Source: Trichaptum fuscoviolaceum
Taxonomy: Eukaryota; Basidiomycota; Agaricomycetes; Hymenochaetales; Trichaptaceae
Direction of reading: 5' to 3'
Assembly: GCA_910574455.1 (NCBI GenBank)
Contig: CAJSYZ010000008.1
Coordinates: 1,676,707-1,740,706 of the forward strand
DNA: 64,000 bases
Positions 1,446 to 20,259 of this stretch are shown here, in pieces (position 1 is the stretch's first letter; the number at the start of each line of letters is the position of its first letter). The position numbers and the translations under genes were made by a program. The notes under the pieces are model-generated. The model saw only the letters and a list, made by a program, of their open reading frames with translations, was not told the DNA's origin and did no database searches.

Positions 1446-4400
1446 TCATTGTCTAGTTTCGTAAAATGTTTCGTGCATGTGCATGTCAGCAAATCTGTTA
1501 ACGTAGAATCTATCGTAAAAGTCCAGGGATTCCTCAGGTGTCAATGACTTCGGAGGAGATTCGTCACCCTTCGGGACCCCAAGGAGGTGAGCTAAACGAA
1601 AGATGTCCCCTATATCTATCACAGACAGCTTCGGAGCCTTGCAGTGACGGTGATAGTGATGTCTGCCACTGCCATTCACTCCGGGACAGCGTCCGACACA
1701 GGCGGTAGAGCTCTCCAACTCATATGCTGGTTCAACTATCCACATTCTTGTTTTCGGGTCGGGCGATTCTCCAACACGCTTGAAAAACTGGACGAGAGCG
1801 CATTCCTGACGTTCCACTTTAACGGTGAATGAGAAAAGAAGTATAACCCTGGCAACTCTCATTCCTGCGAACCCCTGTTTGCGGGAACCACCTCGGACAA
1901 GAACTGCATCTCGTCGAGGTTTTCCGCGCCAAGAGGGACTGGACCTGATCACCTCCCTCATTGCTTGTTCTATAGGGATCGATTCACCACGATACGCAAA
2001 GAACGCGGTGGCTGAATGGAAAATTGAAAAGTCATTGCTAATATCCAGTTTATAGTGTTCAAATCCGTTGTAGTTTAATTTGGCTTGCCTGCTACTACTA
2101 GTAGTAGCAGAACACTTTGAGTTGGTGTTACAACTTTCGTACTTGTTGAATAAGTGTTTCTTGATGAGTTGTCGGAGTTGTCGAAGTTCTGGATAGCCTT
2201 CTATTGCCGCGAGAGCATCGAGCTGTTTAGGGTACACTTTACTGGACTCTGCAAGGATAACAATAAACAAGTTGGATTTGCAGCACCAAAAGGATGTTTC
2301 ACTAACGTTTTTTCGAAGCCATTAACGTAAAGCTCAAAGGGTCATTCCCGCCACCCAAGCGGAGCTGGCGTTCAGCATTTCCTACGCCATGAACCGCACC
2401 ACGCTGTGGCTCATCTATTAAACTTTCGAAATCGTCCAAATCTGCAATTTCGTTGAGCTCTTGAATACCCACAATGGCATCGAAGAAGTCATCTGTATCA
2501 TCAGCTACACCTACTACTAATACGTCACGTTGTTGCATCTGCTCTCCCCCACTGGCATCAGGGTCCCTCTCAGCGTCATCCGACTCTGACTCTGACGACA
2601 TATTCTTGCGCAAAACATCTCGCAAAGCTCTCCACGAAGCCTCGGCTAACGTATCATCCAGCATTCCACGCCTTTTGAAGTCTGCCCTCGATGCAATAAG
2701 TTTACTGAGTCGTTGGTTTGCTGTGATCATCTGACCCAAGGGATCATTTTTGTTTGAGCGTCGCCATGTTTCCTTGACCGCGTAAATGTGCTTATTCTCT
2801 GTGATTGATGAACATAGTCCACTCGGTGCAGCGAACAGAGGAATCATTGTAGGATAGTGGACCATGGCATGCTGTCGTGGTAGTGAGAAGTTATCCCGGA
2901 TACCCATAGCTATGAATATTTGCCGATATTGATGAAAGCAATCCAGAGAGGCTTTGATCTGATCAAGTGTTGAGGCTGTAATCGTGTACCGACGCACAAG
3001 ATAACAGAAGTCGAGAAATGCACTCAATGCATGAATTATATCATCCTGCACAATGCCCACAATAGCCGGAAGATACACCTAAGCGGTTTACATCGACTAC
3101 TATCAGCAAACGACCGCCTCGAACAAGAAGGAAAAACCACATACTTTCATAAGTGCCTTTGAATCATTGCCTGTCCATTGCTTGAAGCCTCGGCCTTCGG
3201 GGAATCTACGTAGTCCAGGAAAAGGAGCAGCGACTCTGATTCTACGCGGAGGTCAGCGATAGTATTCATATTATACAAATTGTTTGAGAATGGCACCTTT
3301 TATCCACAATATCCAGCTCTGTTGTGGTCAAGCTCTGGCATATCCACTCGACAAGATGATCCTTGAAAACACCTTTGATGATTTGGTGCAATAGGTCCGG
3401 AGAAATGAGATCGCATATATCTGCGCGCGGAAAGTCATTGGTGAAGGGCTACGGGAAAACATAGTTCTTAGAAGCGCATCCAATGGAGAATTTGGAGCAC
3501 ATACCACGATATCTTGGTGGAACCCATACTCTTTGCGAATTGTTGCTCTGGTTAAGTTGTTGTCATTTACCTGCTCTATCAATCGTTCGTGTAGCTCTTT
3601 TGTTCGAGGATTTGATGCAAACTCCGGATTATCTAGGTCCTTGTGGGGAGCTGTGCATCTATATAGCCACCGTAAGCCATTTCCTCAGACTCCTATGCGA
3701 TTTTGGAAAGGATGGTACTTACTTGCAGCACCATCCAGTGCATATTGCGCATAGACTCACCTGTTCCGGATAATCGGCTATATACGAGCCGAGTCCGAGA
3801 ACCGACCTACGCAAGTGACCATCAGGGCACCGGAGAATGGTCTGTTCATTGTTTATGGACATGGCGGTCTTCAGTGAACTCAAGATTCTCGATATAGATG
3901 AATGAAAAATTTGATGTCTAAAGCGACGGAAGTCATCTGACTTTTCGTACTGTCGCTCAGCTGCAAAAAAGCGTCAAAACACAATTGAATGGCTCAGTTT
4001 TTGACACACACTCTTTGGTATTGCTAAAAATGCTACAAGCTGGACTGTATTCAACTTTTGGGACCGCCGGGCCTTGTTTGATACATTTCCTATTGAGAGA
4101 TATAACGGATAATATTCGTTGTTGCCAGTTCCAACGGAAACTGTTGTCTTGTCGCTCCCCAAGATCACCGGAACGAACATGGACCCATGGACTGCTTTAT
4201 CTTCGGCTGAGATTTTGTTCTAAGTCAAGGATAATCAGTACACTTCCTCCAACTTTGAATGCTGCATTATTCATGACTTACAGCCTGTTCCCAAGCGAAA
4301 TTTCCGGACATGTAATTTCTGAACACTCGTTCTTTGTCATTGATGTCATCAGATTCCTCCTTTGGCTGATATTCACGAAATGGGACATAGTCGAATTCGC

Positions 4401-5458
4401 CTTCTAAAGCCGTATTATCCACCAAATTTCGGATCACTTCCAAGGGATCCCGATACCATACATCATATTCTTTCCTCTTCCATGACTCGGTGTTCTCGTC
4501 TGTCGCTTTTTGGCCATTGTTGTCCGTGTAGAAGTTACTAAAGGATTTCCAAGGCACATCACCAACTCTCGTAGCGTCAATGACATTGTACAACTTTTGT
4601 GCGTCTCCATCGAGTAGCGTACTAGTGGGATCCAGATCTGAGTCATCGTCGGGCTCAGTTACGTCCAACTCAGAATATCCGCCAGATTTCGCGTTCTTCA
4701 CAGACTGAATTCGCTGGTAAGCCTTCATGATTCCGAGAAGCTTTGTTATATTACCAGCAGACATTTGCTCATCGCGATAAAGAAAGTCTGCGAGCTCAAA
4801 ATCTGCTCGGCACGAATAGGGAGACCAGTCATTTGGTGCAGGTTCATTTCGCGGAACAGGTGGTTCTTCGTTTTCTAAGTTGTTTCCTTCCGCATCACAC
4901 GGGGTGGCTGCACGATGTTTTTCATCAGAGTGTTATCAAACCGAGGACAATATACTTGGTGCGCACCATTCATATATCTGTGGTACACCTTTAGGTTACC
5001 ATCACTCTCCTCATGATCTCCAACGTCGAAGTCGAAATCTTCAGAGGATGCACTACGGCCACTGTCACTTCCGGTGCCAGAATGGGACAGAGAATCAGGT
5101 CTGTCTAGGTCTTGAAGCAGCTCGTCTCGGCCTATACTGAGCATCGAGATATCCTGTGTAAGCATGGAAATATCGTAATCGTAGGAGTCAGACCGCTCTC
5201 AAAATGACCCTCTGTTGGAAGTTCGGACGACCTCGGTAGAGGTTGAGGAGTTGGAGCTCGTGTGGGTCGAATAGGTGAAGAATCATAGTCGTGACCACAG
5301 ACAGTAGATCTTGCCACGGATGACATCGGATGAGCTGAATATTCATGTCTTGCTCTTCCAGATTGACTCTTGAATGTCCTACTACAGCTGGGCAAGGTGC
5401 ATCGAATAGTTGGTGGAAAATGAAAGGGATCGTGCTTTTTCCGTGTCGCTGGCATCAA
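1446..5458 (-). mobile_element. Plavaka-type (CMC superfamily) transposase gene
   Basis: The minus strand encodes a Plavaka-like transposase in several exons. The N-terminus (5458 downwards) has a C2H2 finger of the form CTLPSCSRTFKSQSGRARHEYSAH. Later blocks are typical of the family: DEQMSAGNITKLL (about 4760), WYRDPLEVIRNLVDN (about 4450), MFVPVILGSDKTTVSVGTG with EYYPLYLSIGNVSN (4180-4050), a block around DICDLISPDLLHQIIKG (about 3400), and YLPAIVGIVQDD with SAFLDFCYLVRR (3078-2990). The C-terminal part is an acidic, variable region ending at 1446. These elements move by cut-and-paste in basidiomycete genomes. Whether the copy is intact is unclear: blocks lie in different frames, some joins have good GT-AG introns, but the join near 5190 does not. 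Identity is firm; activity is not shown. Confidence 0.85.
2089..2110. repeat. 22-bp perfect palindrome
   Basis: Bases 2089-2110 form a perfect palindrome of CTGCTACTACT followed by its reverse complement. It lies inside the last Plavaka coding block, where the minus strand reads a Thr/Ser run. Confidence 0.7.
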
Positions 5459-11375: not shown

Positions 11376-11377
11376 CA

Positions 11378-11936
11378 TCATACGAGAGCTTGTATAGCCC
11401 GTCGCCTTCTGCAAGGCGATCAAGCAATACAAAATCACCAATGGCTCATCGTTCCTCCCATACTCGTCGTCCTTGTTCGGCGCCCCGTTGCAGCGCAATT
11501 CGACCTCACCTCACTCAAAGTCCTCGTCTCCGGCGCGGCGCCACTTGGTGCGCCCCTCGTGAAGGCGGTCATGGACCCCTTGCGCTCTCAGGGCAATTCC
11601 GGGCTTGCTATCACGCAGGGCTATGGCTTGTTGGAGACATCGCCGACGTGTCATCTTGTGCCCACGGCAGATGCAGAGAAGAAGGTCGGGTTCATTGGTA
11701 TCTCACTTCCCAAACCTGGAGGCGAGACCTATGGTCAGGAGGGTGAAGCAGGCGAACTATGGTTTAGAGGCCCGTCGGTCATGAAAAGTTACCTGGCACG
11801 GTTTTTTCGTCAACTTACACGAACAAAGGTATTCACCTGCTTTTGATAGAACAACCCCTCTGCAACGAAGAACTCGATCACGGAAGACAGGTGGTTTAAG
11901 ACGGGTGATGTCGCTATCATCGACAGAGGCGGGAAG
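11378..11936 (+). pseudogene. 4-coumarate-CoA ligase-like (AMP-binding) fragment
   Basis: Directly after the CLF1 fragment the sequence switches to the middle of an adenylate-forming enzyme of the 4CL/long-chain acyl-CoA ligase type. Visible parts are LIVPPILVVLVRRP, DLTSLKVLVSGAAPLGAPL, ITQGYGLLETSP, GELWFRGPSVMKSYL, and, after a short intron-like gap, NNPSATKNSITEDRWFKTGDVAIIDR. The N-terminal half with the phosphate-binding loop and the C-terminal lid domain are missing. The usual GYGLTE motif has a Leu for the Thr. The sequence ends abruptly at IIDRGG and runs into a different family. Confidence 0.75.
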
Positions 11937-13904: not shown

Positions 13905-15822
13905 TTTACATTAATTAGGCCACATGGTGGCCGAGAATAGCCTAGGGATAATATGTGGCCGGATTCTGTGATGTACGAATGGAAATATAGCGCTTCCGCT
14001 TTGTCCAACGCTAGAAATCAAAGTCATGGCCGAGGTATGCATCCTGCGTGGTAACAGCATCGAAGCTGTATGAATAGCAGCCGTGTAAAAGGTTGAGATC
14101 ACAAATCCGACCAAGGCCGTAGCGATGGCCGTCTAAAGTAAGCATGAACAATTATGTTGTGGAGATGGAGTCTTAGCACTTACGGCAGCAAAGCTCTTTG
14201 CAGCCCATGAAGCACCCTGCAGTCCGCATGCGACAAGAATGTACATGAACACAATGCGACGTTCACCAACGACGATGTTCAATAGCGGTAGCGCGAGTCG
14301 GCCCACGGCTATACCAAGGTAGAATCCAGATGCAACCCAGGCTGCTCCTCCGGCACTTCCATGCCGGACCTTCAGCATGAAAGATACGATCCAGCCGCCA
14401 CTGACCGGAAGCTTTTAAGATCACACAGTAATATCACGGGTCTCTGCACTCACATTGACTCTTCGGCACTATTAAGTGGTTCAGTACACTTATTTGATAG
14501 TACGCTGAGTTTTGAGCACTCACCCGGTGTAAAAAAGAAGAAAGGCGGATAATGTCCAGACTTCCACACTAGTAAGCACTTCTTTAATGGACCCGTGGTT
14601 TTGCCCGTGCTCTCCAGTGGATATAACCTGCTCCTCCGGGATACGGTCATATCTGGCGGTGCCGTACACAAAGGTGAAGTAGAAGCATAGGACCGACAAC
14701 ATGCACAATCCAAGACATGTAAAGTAAAAGAAGTTGATCTTACTCGGTGGTGCCAAATCAGACTGTCTAAGGTTGCAATGATTTAAATGGATTCTTACCC
14801 TGATATGGCGGGAGATGAAGATTGAAGCAATAATCGGGCTACTGAACGCGCCGAAACCTACATATGTTTTATTTTCAATTCCAGATAAATGTGAAATGTA
14901 GTGAATCGGCATACCATAGATGCTGTGCAGAAATCCCATGCGTACCAGTGGTCGAGGTAAAGTTGCAAAGTAGGAGTTGCACATGCCAAGCTACGAGTTG
15001 TAAATAACCTTCGCTTTTACTCGAGAAGAAAGACGATACCTGTGTAGAGTATCCCATACCAATGAGAAAGAACGCAAAACACATCAGGGGAAACGATACA
15101 AGCTGTGAGCAGTTGATAATTATCTGGTCGACCCAGATAAGACTCCGTCCTCATAAGATATGGCAAAGACGAACTCCCAGCATCATTATCAAGCCACTTC
15201 CGACTAGTACTCTTCCAAATCCCCACCTGTGTTGAAATAAATCGAGTAAATGACAGTGGACATAAGATATGTATAAAAATAGATTCAAACCTCTTCTGCA
15301 CTCGTCCCATTCCAATGGCAGAAGCGAAATAACCAATGCAATATGCAACGCTTTTGTTTGGAGGATAAGTCAATGCAGTACTCAAATTCATGAGTTTGGG
15401 CTGGGTTTGTTTACGAACAAGAGCACCGAGACAGAAGAATAACTGAGGTGGTAGACGCTTTCGATCGTTGGGACTAATGATCCCGTCACGCCACCGCTAA
15501 TTTGAGAATAGGAAAGGTCTTAGGATCAACAAGACGATGGAATAATAAATGTTACTCACTTATACCCAGCAAGGAAAAAGGAAAGATGGCAAGCAAACTC
15601 GCGCATCGTCTGCAGCCTTGGAGTTACCGTAGCTTGGTCATTCTCTTCAACGGTAAGTTCTTCTCTAGCATTCGCAGCTTCCCCAGTGCAATTCTGAGGT
15701 CCTAGTATGACTGGTACGTGTACAAAAGATCCGGAATCGCTTTCAAGCGGAATGCTGTCCATTGTCTTATGAGTAACAGCACTACCGGGCTTAGTATTAT
15801 CGTCTGCAGCAATAAAGGCCAT
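13905..15822 (-). pseudogene. MFS transporter of the FucP/BSC6-like type, 3'-truncated
   Basis: The start is ATG at 15822 (MAFIAADDN), followed by a charged N-tail. Spliced blocks then give FLAGYNGGVTGSLVP, GYFASAIGMGR, WGFGRVLVGSG, CFAFFLIGMGYSTQ, NSYFATLPRPLVRMGFLHSIYGFGAFSSPIIAS, a central loop, GGWIVSFMLKVRHGS, GFYLGIAVGRLALP, GERRIVFMYILVACG and GQSGSAIFPF. This is the fungal fucose-permease-like MFS branch, probably at the plasma membrane with about 12 helices; the substrate is unknown. Most joins are clean GT-AG introns, but one around 15150-15215 is doubtful. After SAIFPF a donor (GTACAT) is present but no further exon can be found before the AT-rich repeat, so the last helices appear lost. 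It could still be expressed as a shortened protein. Confidence 0.65.
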
Positions 15823-17321
15823 ATTCGAGTCGAGACTTGAGCGGGGAGGTGGAAGTTCTGGAACGAGGGACGTTGGGCATCCGCGTCCGAGTCATGCCTA
15901 TCATATGTCGGCTAAAACGTAGCTCGATAAGCCTTACTAAGGCTCGCAGTTACCAACCTGAGAGGCTGCCACTACTAGTAGCAGGCCACATTACTTTACT
16001 CTCCTCAATCGACGGAAGTAAACGTAAAAAGACCAGCTGCTTATCGAGCCTATGCGCCCCTGCTCAAACAATCGTCCTTGACGATTGTATTGCTGTGCAC
16101 AGTGCACAGGATGATCTGGAGGCGAAGTTAAAGCAGGTTAAAGCTAATGGATAAGCATATGTGGCCCTTACAAATCTTACTAAGATTGTTTCGAGACACC
16201 ATTTCTATTACATAGTAAGCATCAGTTTGGAGCTCAGAATTACCGGAGCCCTGTGATGCAAAATGGAAATGGTCCGACTGGTCAGACTACGGAGGTACTA
16301 TTAGATAGAGTATTGTCTTACGCTCACTGACACTGTGCGGTAAGGTATGAAACTCGAATATTCTTGTTCAATAGATTCCTGTCAAAATATCGAAACTTGA
16401 GTATCTCAGCTAATCGAAACACAAGATGCTCACTGGATGGAGATGAGACATGAGGCAACGAATTGGCTATGAATAGGATCATTGAGAAGCACAGAAAGCA
16501 TCGGATGCTTTCTATAGTTCTGCATGGGTGACCAACGAGAAAGGGGTACGGCAAATAGCAGCGATCCAAAATGTCGACGGCTGCGCCTTTTGAACGAAGT
16601 GGGACGGAGAGGCTTCCGGAAGAAAACAAAGTACAGTTGACAATCCATAAATTTTAATGGAAGACGTCCAAAGACCACGGTATCAGTATTTCACGAGGAT
16701 CTACTGCTTGAGCGTCCTCGGACTGTAGATGCCTGAAGGATGAGTATGCGCGCAGTCAGAATAAAGTTAATGCCAAAGAATGTTGTTCGAGACAAAGCAG
16801 TCGGGCAGAATAATTTAAGTCGTGCAGGAATGGAACGTGGTGGGAGAAAGTCTCCAACATGTACCAGTGACTGTGTTCACTGGAGCAAGCTATTGTTCGT
16901 AAGGCTGCTGCGCATCCGAGAGATTAATGGAAAGACCGCCGAGGTATTCGTAAATGCCCACAAGAGTCAAGCTCACTGGTGGTGCCATCTACATCCTTCG
17001 ATTTGTCGGTCTACCCTGCCAAAGCTTAATTATGGGGTGCACACAATTAGTCCCGCTATTTCGGTCGTCGTGGGTCCCACAGATGGGAGTCTTCCGATTC
17101 CTCTGCAGCATGCCCATGAGTAAATCGACCGCGCCCGAAGAGCATCTCTCTGTCACTGGCTGTGTATGAGAAAGTTCCCAGCAGCACAAGATAGAATCGA
17201 GCTCCTTATGGGTGCAGGCAGGTCTTGTCAGTTCTTCGAAGCGAGAGTACTCGCACATTTTCGATATGCAGAAACGCTAGCATCTTCATGTGTAACAAAA
17301 GATGCGATGGGACAAAGTTGA
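15823..17321. other. 1.5 kb without a supported gene
   Basis: Short open frames occur on both strands but none shows recognisable motifs, good starts or splice structure. A perfect inverted repeat of CTGTGCAC and GTGCACAG with one central base lies at 16093-16109. The right end should hold the upstream control region of the peptide gene at 17402. Confidence 0.5.
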
Positions 17322-17350
17322 GGGTGCTTTTTTCTATATAAAAAGCACCC
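17322..17350 (+). promoter_or_regulatory. TATA box inside a perfect 11-bp hairpin
   Basis: GGGTGCTTTTT (17322-17332) and its exact reverse complement AAAAAGCACCC (17340-17350) are separated by seven bases. The centre reads TATATAAAAA, a strong TATA box about 65 bp upstream of the ATG at 17402. Spacing suits a short 5' leader. The inverted repeat could be an operator for a dimeric factor or simply a symmetric core promoter. Confidence 0.65.
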
Positions 17351-17401: not shown

Positions 17402-18397
17402 ATGTACGTCCTTCGCCTCCTCGCCTTGACATTCGTTGCCACCGCCTTCGCGGCTCCCAGTAAGTCTCAAAAGCCTTCTTCACTATGAGACATGTATCCT
17501 GACCCTGCCTTCAGTGCTTATAACGCGAGACAGTAAGTCTTACATATTTTCCTTGTTTACGTGTTCCAGATATCTTACAGATCGACAGGGGAGGCGTTGG
17601 CGCTCCGAGTTCGGGACGGAGGTAACGTCAAATTCGGCGCCTTCATTAAGGGGTCGCTAAAAATAAACAAGCTTCTACAGAAGATGGTGCACCTTTAGGA
17701 GAGACTTTCCGCCAACGCGACAGTAAGTAACGAGATATACGCCAAAATATCAGACTTACGCGGCACAGCGGTGGTGGACGGACCTCCGTTGGGCGAGACC
17801 TTCAAGAAACGCGACAGTAAGTGCAAAATTGACTTGATGAAGGAATGTAGCTGAACATGATATCACCGAAAGCCATTGATGGGCCTCCTCTCGGAGAAAC
17901 CTTCCGCGCGAGAGACGGTAGGACTTGATAAGTCTCGCTTCACGACCGTAACCAATGATGCGTCTTGTATTTCAGAGATCGATGGTCCACCTCTCGGAGA
18001 GACTTTCAAGGACAGGGAGGGTGAGTAAAAAAGATGACGCATGGGCCCTCATTGTCGTGTTAATAGGTGAACTATGCATAGTTGGTCCCCCCCTCGGAGA
18101 GACGTTCCGAACTCGTGAAGGTAAGAATAACAAGCATCAGTGATTTCTTCATTCCGATAGAAGTCTAACATCTTAGAAGCCGATGGAGTGCCTTTGGGAG
18201 AGACATTCCGTAAGCGCCAATGTGGGTTCATTCAAAGAATAGGCCATAGACGTGAAGATTCTAAGAATTACCGATTTTTTTCCGTAGCCACTGACGGAGC
18301 GCCGTTGGGTGAAACGTTCCGCAAGAGAGAGAGCGTAGATGGTGCACCTCTAGGAGAAACGTTCCGTGAGAGGGACGTCATTGATAACTTGCTATAG
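17402..18397 (+). CDS. secreted repeat-peptide precursor with eight G[P/A/V]PLGETF units
   Basis: ATG 17402 opens a signal peptide (MYVLRLLALTFVATAFAAP). Nine exons can be read: 17402-17459, 17515-17532, 17681-17722, 17769-17816, 17873-17917, 17976-18020, 18082-18120, 18177-18221 and 18288-18397. They total 450 nt, about 149 residues. Each exon from the third on carries the unit DG[P/A/V]PLGETF-[R/K]-x-R-[D/E/Q]; the last carries two, making eight units. The fifth unit has VG instead of DG. A 15-nt longer form of its exon is possible (acceptor at 18066). Units end in RQR, KKR, RAR, KDR, RTR, RKR, RKR and RER. This fits release of 10-14-residue peptides by a Kex2-like protease, some sites being dibasic and others R-x-R. 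The design matches kexin-processed or dikaritin-type precursors; I know no family with this core. No modifying enzyme (e.g. DUF3328) lies nearby. Confidence 0.8.
17681..18394 (+). repeat. array of phase-1 symmetric repeat exons
   Basis: Six exons of 39-48 nt each code for one peptide unit and split the codon after base 1 at both ends, so any exon can be duplicated or lost without changing frame. The introns between them are 46-66 nt. Core codons differ between units (for example CCTTTAGGAGAG, CCGTTGGGCGAG and CCTCTCGGAGAA) while the peptide stays the same. This indicates selection on the protein rather than recent copying. Confidence 0.75.
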
Positions 18398-18873
18398 GAC
18401 GAGACGTACTGCCAAAGAAACGGTGAGTAATAATGCACAGAGTCGTCTAAACATTCAATGACCGGTCAGATATTCTAGACAGTGCTCCTTCGGGGAAAGC
18501 GTTCAGAACGGCAACATACCGACTTTTCTTCCATGACATCACGAGAACTTGCAGTACGAGAACTTGGGTTCATACATGCAAATTTTTCTGGTCAAATGAC
18601 CTGGGATGCTTTGGCAATTCTTTTCCGGAGGCTTCATGAAACTTTATGATTTGCGGTTGTTCGGAATTCGATCACGGAACATTGAAACTTCACACTGCGA
18701 TGTTTGTATCATCTTGATAGATTTAGACTGAATGATACGTGGATTCGTACTTATATCTGAACAGGCGGCAAGTAAGTCAGATCCACGCAGCACGGACACA
18801 ACGGCACAATGGTGGATAAGCAAAATGAGGCTCACGGTGTAACTATAATGCAGTGAGCAATGTAGGCGAACTT
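18398..18873. other. downstream region with a decayed peptide unit
   Basis: Just after the stop, bases 18480-18510 can be read as DSAPSGKAFRTA behind an AG. This resembles a worn-down GAPLGETFR unit and is preceded by a donor-like GTGAGT at 18423. It suggests the array was once longer. The rest shows nothing recognisable. Confidence 0.4.
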
Positions 18874-20010
18874 CTATTCATCAACATCTATACCCATGAG
18901 TAGGATGGATTCGAAAGTGTCGTCGCTTTTGGAAGTCAGGGTCCCTCGAGCACCCACACCAGACAAGAGTTCCTCGTCACTTCTTGGAATAGTCCATCCA
19001 TATGATTCTGGAAGTCGGAATGCACTGAAGAGAAAACTTGCATCTCCTTCAATCCCAAGCGTGTGCCAGTTTCCCCACTGCGAATCGGACTCATCGCTTC
19101 CCTCGGAATCGGAGGAAGAGTGGGAGTGGAGAGTCTTTCTCCTTACAAACACAGGCTTGAACGAAAACCACAGCCCGAATGATGACCAGAAAGGTGTCTC
19201 TTTCGCTAAACTGCGTACTTTATAAGAAATTAAAACCTCCGGAGGTTGCTCGCGGCGTACGAAAGGTGGTGCTGTCACTTGCAAAAGAGACCGTAGTAAG
19301 GGCGCCAGTAGATGAGGGAAATATACCTGCGGGAAATGTGAGAGGACGCCTCACTATTGCAGATTGTGTTACTCACCAGATCACTACAAACAATATGTGT
19401 GAGCACTGGAGACTCCGAGCTTCTCGTCGGATCCCGGGAGTAAGTGCTCAACAGAGACAATAGCCCAGTAGCATCATCTGACACACCCCATGCCAAAGGG
19501 TGCGATAACACATTTGGAGTGCCCGACCCCACATCCCGAGAGATCCCCGCATTTCGCAGTTCAAGAGAGATGTTTTCTTCAAGTAGTGGGCACACGTCAG
19601 GTAAGTCCGTCAACACGAGTGTGTCCACTGTCCTTCCGCTTTCAAAAGTTGCTTAGCAAGATGAGCTCCGACATAACCATTCCCTGATCCCAACTCTAAG
19701 ATGGTGCACGGCGATTCACAGAAAATTGAGCAAAGTGGGTCAAAGTCGATATTCGAGGAAGGTTGCCTGAGATATTGAACCATGATATGCGCGGCTTCCC
19801 TGATGAGAGATCACACACAACCTATATGAGTTGTACTTCATTAACGATTGTCCGATGATGTAGGATTAATCACCAGACACGACCTGCTATGCCATATTTC
19901 TGTATGGCTCTTTCCTGTTGCACCGACTCGAATACGGAGTTCTCTCCTTCACGATCAGATACCAGAGGGTGTATATCAAGCTCAGTAGGAAAATTCGGAT
20001 GATTTGACAT
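18874..20010 (-). CDS. METTL21/EFM-type protein lysine methyltransferase
   Basis: ATG at 20010 (MSNHPNFPTELDIHPLVS). Exons are 20010-19874, 19799-19377 and 19326-18874, with clean GT-AG introns. Domain order: RVWEAAHIMVQYL, the SAM-binding loop ILELGSGNGYVGAHLAKQL, VLTDLPDVCPLLEENI, then HIVCSDLVYFPHLLAPLL and VLISYKVRSLAKETPFW. A Ser/Asp-rich loop and a C-terminal domain ending at 18874 follow. This is the class I, METTL21/YNL024C-like group that methylates lysines on chaperones or elongation factors in the cytosol. One base is out of register near 19640: GAHLAKQLLKAEG and VDTLVLTDLP are in different frames with no possible intron. That is either a sequence error or a recent inactivating indel. 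It diverges from ANT1 over 249 bp. Confidence 0.75.
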
Positions 20011-20259
20011 CTCTCTCGTAGAGTGCCAGTTGAAGAAGAGTTGTGCAACTTATGCTATCAGTGTTTGGCAGTGTTGGAAAATGAAGGTTATGTGGAGGAT
20101 GGCGGCAGGGTCGCAACTTGAATTGCGGGGATTCACATGCCTGAGTCCGGTCCTGGCATTCGGGCACCGTCTTGTGCCGACCCTACTCCGTCCATCTTGT
20201 CCTGTGTCCACAGCGTATAAGGCTTTTGGGGCCCACTCTCTCTTACGACTACCACGACG
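20011..20259. promoter_or_regulatory. shared promoter of METTL21-like gene and ANT1
   Basis: Only 249 bp separate the two divergent start codons (20010 minus, 20260 plus), so upstream control elements must be shared or interleaved. I identify no specific motif. Confidence 0.5.

Follow-up and report, generated by a model that had tools for sequence, protein, structure and literature searches.

The gene at 17402-18397 (+) of the Trichaptum fuscoviolaceum DNA studied here is probably a precursor of the secretory pathway of the KEP (KEX2-processed repeat) type, which carries eight copies of one small peptide and releases linear peptides with a PLGETF core. The analysed stretch, called the window below, comprises 64,000 nt (GCA_910574455.1, CAJSYZ010000008.1, 1,676,707-1,740,706, + strand) and is part of contig C8; the genome that we searched has 59.1 Mb in 12 contigs. 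The spliced open reading frame is predicted to run from the ATG at 17402 to the TAG at 18397 and to encode 160 residues. Its likely product, judging from the translation, is a set of linear peptides that have [D/V]G[P/A/V]PLGETF in common. Fungi commonly have precursors of repeated peptides, few of which have a known function. Support for a precursor comes from the layout of the gene, the conservation of the core and the splicing, all of which were read from the sequence alone.

The eight PLGETF-coding stretches (starting at 17692, 17786, 17887, 17990, 18090, 18191, 18302 and 18347, all on the + strand) are distributed over three reading frames, and therefore can be joined by splicing only. 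In a model of ten exons, the nine introns are 46-66 nt long, all of the form GT...AG and all in phase 1, and the internal exons measure 18, 33, 42, 48, 45, 45, 39 and 45 nt, each a multiple of three. These eight internal exons (18-48 nt, all phase 1-1), of which two are uncertain in what is a predicted model, account for 315 of the 483 coding nucleotides, stop included. As in a micro-exon gene, most of the predicted coding sequence thus lies in very small symmetric exons.

A TATA-box-like TATATAAAAAG at 17335-17345 (+), found by inspection 57 nt 5' of the ATG, is a candidate core promoter. Exon 1 (17402-17459, +) encodes a signal-like N-terminus, MYVLRLLALTFVATAFAAP, whose small residues (A-F-A / F-A-A) lie close to the probable site of cleavage; judged by hydropathy and inspection only, the 12 residues LLALTFVATAFA have a mean hydropathy of 2.25 and small residues follow at the end. 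Exon 2 (17515-17532, +; MLITRD, 18 nt) and exon 3 (17589-17621, +; REALALRVRDG, 33 nt) are uncertain, the latter taking this form in one of five possible 5' paths. Units 1 to 6 occupy one exon each of the spliced model, all on the + strand: DGAPLGETF-RQR-D in exon 4 (17681-17722), DGPPLGETF-KKR-D in exon 5 (17769-17816), DGPPLGETF-RAR-D in exon 6 (17873-17917), DGPPLGETF-KDR-E in exon 7 (17976-18020), VGPPLGETF-RTR-E in exon 8 (18082-18120; an alternative acceptor 15 nt upstream adds GELCI and keeps the frame) and DGVPLGETF-RKR-Q in exon 9 (18177-18221). Exon 10 (18288-18397, +) holds units 7 (DGAPLGETF-RKR-E) and 8 (DGAPLGETF-RER-D), which run on with no intron between them; VIDNLL and the TAG stop follow. 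An earlier sequence-only reading of this DNA had described a spliced gene with a signal-like N-terminus and eight near-identical units, and we likewise read a hydrophobic N-terminus and eight units of the form DG[P/A/V]PLGETF-[R/K]xR-[D/E/Q]. Its statement that every unit starts with DG has to be corrected for unit 5, which carries V instead of D.

The splicing model is also supported from within the sequence. The GT donor of units 1-6 keeps a constant position, one base past the [D/E/Q] codon. At the intronless junction of units 7 and 8, which reads R-ESV-DG, the spacer is three residues long, and the same spacing results at four of the six predicted spliced joins between units (DTI, DEI, EEA and QST), the remaining two being DTVV-DG and EV-G. 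That splicing and direct continuation arrive at equal spacing argues for the predicted joins. The 5' end is where the models diverge. Five splice paths pass a simple filter and give 8, 9 or 10 exons, because exons 2 and 3 are uncertain; the 9-exon path has the top crude splice score but requires a 148-nt intron, and in the 10-exon path the corresponding 5' introns stay at 55-59 nt. The multi-exon layout described previously is upheld, and its count of nine exons becomes one of 8, 9 or 10.

Since the internal unit exons are symmetric (phase 1-1), any one of them could be skipped without loss of the frame. Duplication or loss of exons can thus alter the number of copies, and alternative splicing may do so too. 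The idea may be carried further, to a fungal precursor resembling those of peptide hormones: a cassette of symmetric mini-exons, each carrying a single copy of the peptide. Alternative splicing would set the copy number and the mix, and an endoprotease would cut at basic-x-Arg instead of dibasic sites. We consider this extended proposal unlikely.

Near-identical repeats of at least 8 residues, three or more in number, are clearly present, as all eight units share 6/6 identical core residues. The invariance of PLGETF that had been noted before holds up even though synonymous sites are near saturation: the eight cores are identical as protein (8/8) and all different as DNA (8/8), with a pS of 0.73 per site between units and no amino-acid difference. 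The counted pN of the core, 0.032, can arise only from multi-step changes of Leu codons, and the RxRD stretch beside the core has a pN of 0.40. The introns have a mean identity of 0.721, compared with 0.705 after shuffling (sd 0.073), and thus show no excess likeness. With intron likeness at the shuffled level and cores alike as protein, the copies are old and were not recently homogenised. Judged by its codons, the PLGETF core has been held fixed by selection.

The end of the gene offers a further view of this constraint. DVIDNLL*, previously taken for a short tail, forms the beginning of a decayed ninth unit (DNLL*DETYCQRN, 18383-18421, +), which is in register and contains the stop of the gene. 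GTGAGT stands one base past the end of unit 9, at the customary donor position, and an alignment with four joined units as query takes in units 7 and 8 and continues through the TAG to the end of unit 9. After a CTAG acceptor follows a decayed unit 10, (G)DSAPSGKAFRTAT, at 18479-18516 (+). Core identity is 2/6 in unit 9 and 3/6 in unit 10, compared with 6/6 in all eight units upstream of the stop. When a profile was run over both strands, 36 of 127,922 positions scored at least as high as unit 9 (including the eight units and both decayed units), and 10 of 127,922 at least as high as unit 10 (besides unit 10, these are the eight units and one more). Each is unusual at the place where it is expected, yet both were recognised after the fact. 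From these sequences it seems that constraint ends at the stop, and that the units lost it once they were no longer translated, as would be expected if the encoded peptide matters. The gene would thus contain its own natural control, with units decaying past the stop and staying perfect ahead of it.

One could also argue that the stop in unit 9 marks the onset of loss, that the gene is decaying or unexpressed, and that the eight cores are a remnant. The decay of units 9 and 10, with the stop inside unit 9, would fit such a history, as would the single gene, for which the searches of the genome found no paralogue. Against it stand the eight perfect cores at near-saturated synonymous sites, an open frame, splice sites and TATA-like box that are all in place, and the position of the decay seen, which lies past the stop. 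A decaying or unexpressed gene is, in our opinion, very improbable.

How the precursor could be processed is suggested by its unit boundaries, which read, in order, RQR, KKR, RAR, KDR, RTR, RKR, RKR and RER. The outer basic residues are kept in 8/8 and the middle residue is free (Q, K, A, D, T, K, K, E), so that every unit ends in basic-x-Arg followed by D, E or Q (8/8). Two further basic-x-Arg motifs, RDR-E and RVR-D, are found in the leader of the 10-exon model. A dibasic pair occurs in only 3/8 boundaries, and when the protein is cut in silico at dibasic pairs, units 1-2 stay together, as do units 3-6. The sequence-only reading was right to see basic P1 and P3 residues at every boundary; the link of these boundaries to Kex2 is not supported in that form. 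The criterion of Umemura asks for at least three repeats between KR, KK, RK or RR sites (PMC7329392), and the gene, with a dibasic pair at three of eight boundaries, falls outside it, so that Kex2 is a candidate for the cutting enzyme. As described in PMC9769878, dibasic sites are required in the first method of Vogt, and the second uses repeats and visual inspection. In the same account, some KEP products of Coprinopsis made in Pichia were apparently cut after a single Arg, and Agaricomycete precursors of the KEP kind yield linear secreted peptides (PMC9769878).

We propose that the N-terminal region sends the protein to the secretory pathway, where a Golgi endoprotease would cut past the Arg of each [K/R]-x-R-|[D/E/Q] boundary and leave units with D, E or Q in first place. 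This enzyme would most likely be of the Kex2 type and accept a site that is not dibasic; another Arg-specific protease is possible. Two matches to the Kex2 P-domain were found in the genome, in frames crossed by stops, which are probably introns. Trimming of C-terminal basic residues by a Kex1-like enzyme may then produce GETF ends at the RKR and KKR boundaries (three units) and GETF-[R/K]-x ends at the others. In silico cutting at basic-x-Arg gives, beginning with unit 1, fragments whose first residues are DG, DT, DT, DE, EV, EE, QS, ES and DV. The STE13 signature (XA/XP after the cut site) is absent at the unit starts, and the only fragment that starts with EA is EALALRVR, from the leader of the 10-exon model. 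The calculated MH+ values of the predicted peptides are 932.436 (DGPPLGETF), 906.420 (DGAPLGETF) and 934.452 (DGVPLGETF), and those of predicted longer peptides 1261.595 (DTIDGPPLGETF) and 1488.733 (DTIDGPPLGETFRA). The linear peptides may act outside the cell, as signals or in encounters with other organisms.

Conservation of R/K and R beside the core would equally fit a binding motif of a repeat protein that is never processed. The gene could then encode an intact, disordered, secreted protein, in which uncut DGxPLGETF-BxR serves eight times as a multivalent ligand or as a wall- or matrix-binding motif. That five of the eight boundaries have no dibasic pair, and that the flanking R/K-x-R is kept along with the core as in one motif, would agree with an intact protein. 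However, the units adjoin with spacers of 2-4 residues, no other Pfam domain is found in the protein, and the free middle residue of the boundary and the free spacer would be more in keeping with a cut site than with a folded repeat. We think an intact protein rather unlikely and favour the processed precursor.

It was also claimed that the core has no Tyr, Cys or Trp, which we confirm (Phe is present in 8/8), and that the missing Tyr sets it apart from cyclised peptides, which is too strict. Victorin is described as cyclised from its C-terminal Phe to an internal Leu and not through Tyr (PMC9233826), so that the absence of Tyr alone is no bar to a cyclic product. Since PLGETF contains Leu and ends in Phe, it is conceivable that the gene encodes a RiPP precursor, whose released core would be closed through Phe, as in victorin, by an unlinked enzyme of the UstYa type. 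A search of the genome gave at least nine UstYa matches, none of the nine listed in the window; the nearest among them lies ∼613 kb from the gene on the same contig, C8, which argues against a dikaritin cluster. Scanning 105 of the 140 open reading frames of at least 98 aa in the window, unspliced, against Pfam at E 1e-4 (the 35 omitted were mostly overlapping) gave no UstYa, tyrosinase, S41 peptidase or P450 match. Moreover, 103 of 1,680 Basidiomycota KEP genes are reported to have a DUF3328 (UstYa) gene among their 15 closest genes (PMC7329392). A cyclised product is in our view quite improbable, and linear peptides from a processed precursor remain the preferred reading.

The nine UstYa matches listed include groups at C2:4.23-4.26 Mb (4), C5:0.31-0.36 Mb (2) and C8:2.308-2.310 Mb (2), which are candidate dikaritin-type clusters elsewhere in the genome. 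Families recognised among the 105 scanned frames are G-alpha, Arf, mitochondrial carrier, AMP-binding, Plavaka transposase, PTP-like phytase, cyclophilin, capping protein beta, VTC, SPX, DUF202, Gtr1/RagA and a DSP-PTPase-like match. The AMP-binding enzyme piece (11376-11843, +, Pfam E 1.4e-15), ∼6 kb upstream of the repeat gene, could be part of a biosynthetic enzyme; nothing ties it to the gene. Tail to tail with the repeat gene lies a Methyltransf_16 gene (protein lysine methyltransferase-like; 18877-20020, -), which was set aside as a tailoring enzyme as the core has no Lys. Lysine methyltransferases of this type are cytosolic, which was also counted against a tailoring role. Divergent to the repeat gene is a multi-exon gene at 13950-15900 (-), membrane-transporter-like by eye, with two open reading frames that have no Pfam match. 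Further away are a Plavaka transposase piece (4270-4932, -, Pfam E 2e-23) and, at 32000-64000, PTPlike_phytase matches in 5 of the 53 frames scanned there, together with VTC, SPX, DUF202 and Gtr1/RagA. The Plavaka piece, the short introns and the P-domain and UstYa matches by themselves indicate a fungus, probably a mushroom-forming basidiomycete.

The repeat gene appears to be alone in its genome. An exact DNA pattern for PLGETF has 8 sites in the whole 59.1 Mb, all in the repeat gene (reversed-pattern control, 4); this is more than chance would give, and no paralogue outside the gene was found. With four joined units as a protein query and an E limit of 10, the genome showed 6 matches, all within the gene. 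When up to 3 mismatches were allowed, a 29-base pattern was found at 123 places (reversed control, 2), and among the 100 listed, 8 are in the repeat gene, 87 in one high-copy repeat and 5 isolated. The isolated places were rejected as paralogues, each being one weak match with no second unit. The high-copy repeat, which carries GACGAATTGCCTTTAGTCGAAACATTTCG or a close variant, is interspersed over many contigs; the copies inspected read DELPLVETF or nearly so in one frame with stops around, and the resemblance was taken as chance likeness.

No relatives were found among PDB sequences, and a Pfam search with the repeat protein at E 1e-3 gave no match. The 20 and 192 pattern stretches found in viral and prokaryote contigs yielded no confirmed case, and these collections, being non-fungal, are silent on fungal homologues. 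The string PLGETF was not found in the open-access papers searched, a search which leaves supplementary tables aside, where a relative may be listed; it is also absent from the main texts of the KEP papers, as are shorter core strings from two of them. The view that no family with a PLGETF core has been described is consistent with both the Pfam and the literature search. A narrow search of the literature on exon-per-unit Kex2 precursors gave nothing to the point, none of the papers listed on fungal microexons concerned repeat precursors, and the texts examined describe neither the exon-per-unit layout nor the basic-x-Arg boundary. The single-copy gene, known from one genome, would belong to a known kind, the repeat precursor; it is the layout of one exon per copy, together with the basic-x-Arg boundary, that is unusual. 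Published KEP screens, in the criteria examined, take predicted proteins as their input and for the most part require dibasic sites. With exons of ∼45 nt and basic-x-Arg boundaries, a gene of this kind could escape twice, as gene callers may not join the exons and dibasic filters would reject the protein. Provided that the peptide exists, peptidomics would have a simple target in DG[P/A/V]PLGETF.

Among known systems, dikaritins and epichloecyclins (ustiloxin, phomopsin, asperipin, victorin, GigA) also have multi-core secretory precursors, but the core described here has no Tyr and no UstYa or tailoring gene was found nearby. Rep1/Hum3 of Ustilago maydis and MiSSP8 of Laccaria bicolor are repetitive secreted precursors with Kex2 sites, likened here by their description in PMC7329392 only. 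SP7 effectors of Rhizophagus were considered as a parallel for one exon per repeat and set aside, as they are described with one conserved intron ahead of the first repeat. By analogy of architecture, the schistosome micro-exon gene (MEG) is the closest parallel to this gene that we found. We know of no MEG exons that are copies of one processed peptide. MEGs are alike at the gene level, with a signal-bearing product and mostly very small symmetric exons, and the product is described as secreted or membrane-bound (PMC4350168). They are flatworm genes, and the likeness is one of architecture, with no kinship implied.

In its product the gene is most like the KEPs, especially those of Agaricomycetes (PMC9769878, PMC7329392, PMC6339444), with which it shares a short protein, near-identical tandem units between basic residues, a peptide without Tyr or Cys, no nearby UstYa gene and, plausibly, a signal at the N-terminus. 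A private core would be ordinary for this class, in which no homologue was assigned to 2,560 of 7,878 members (PMC7329392). It differs from them in having basic-x-Arg boundaries, of which only 3/8 are dibasic, from the basidiomycete alpha-factor-like KEPs in lacking the XA/XP signature of STE13 at the unit starts, and further in giving almost each unit a phase-1 exon to itself. The main texts of PMC9769878, PMC7329392 and PMC6339444 do not use the word 'exon' at all. The gene probably works like a KEP, yet by the published dibasic rule it stands outside the class.
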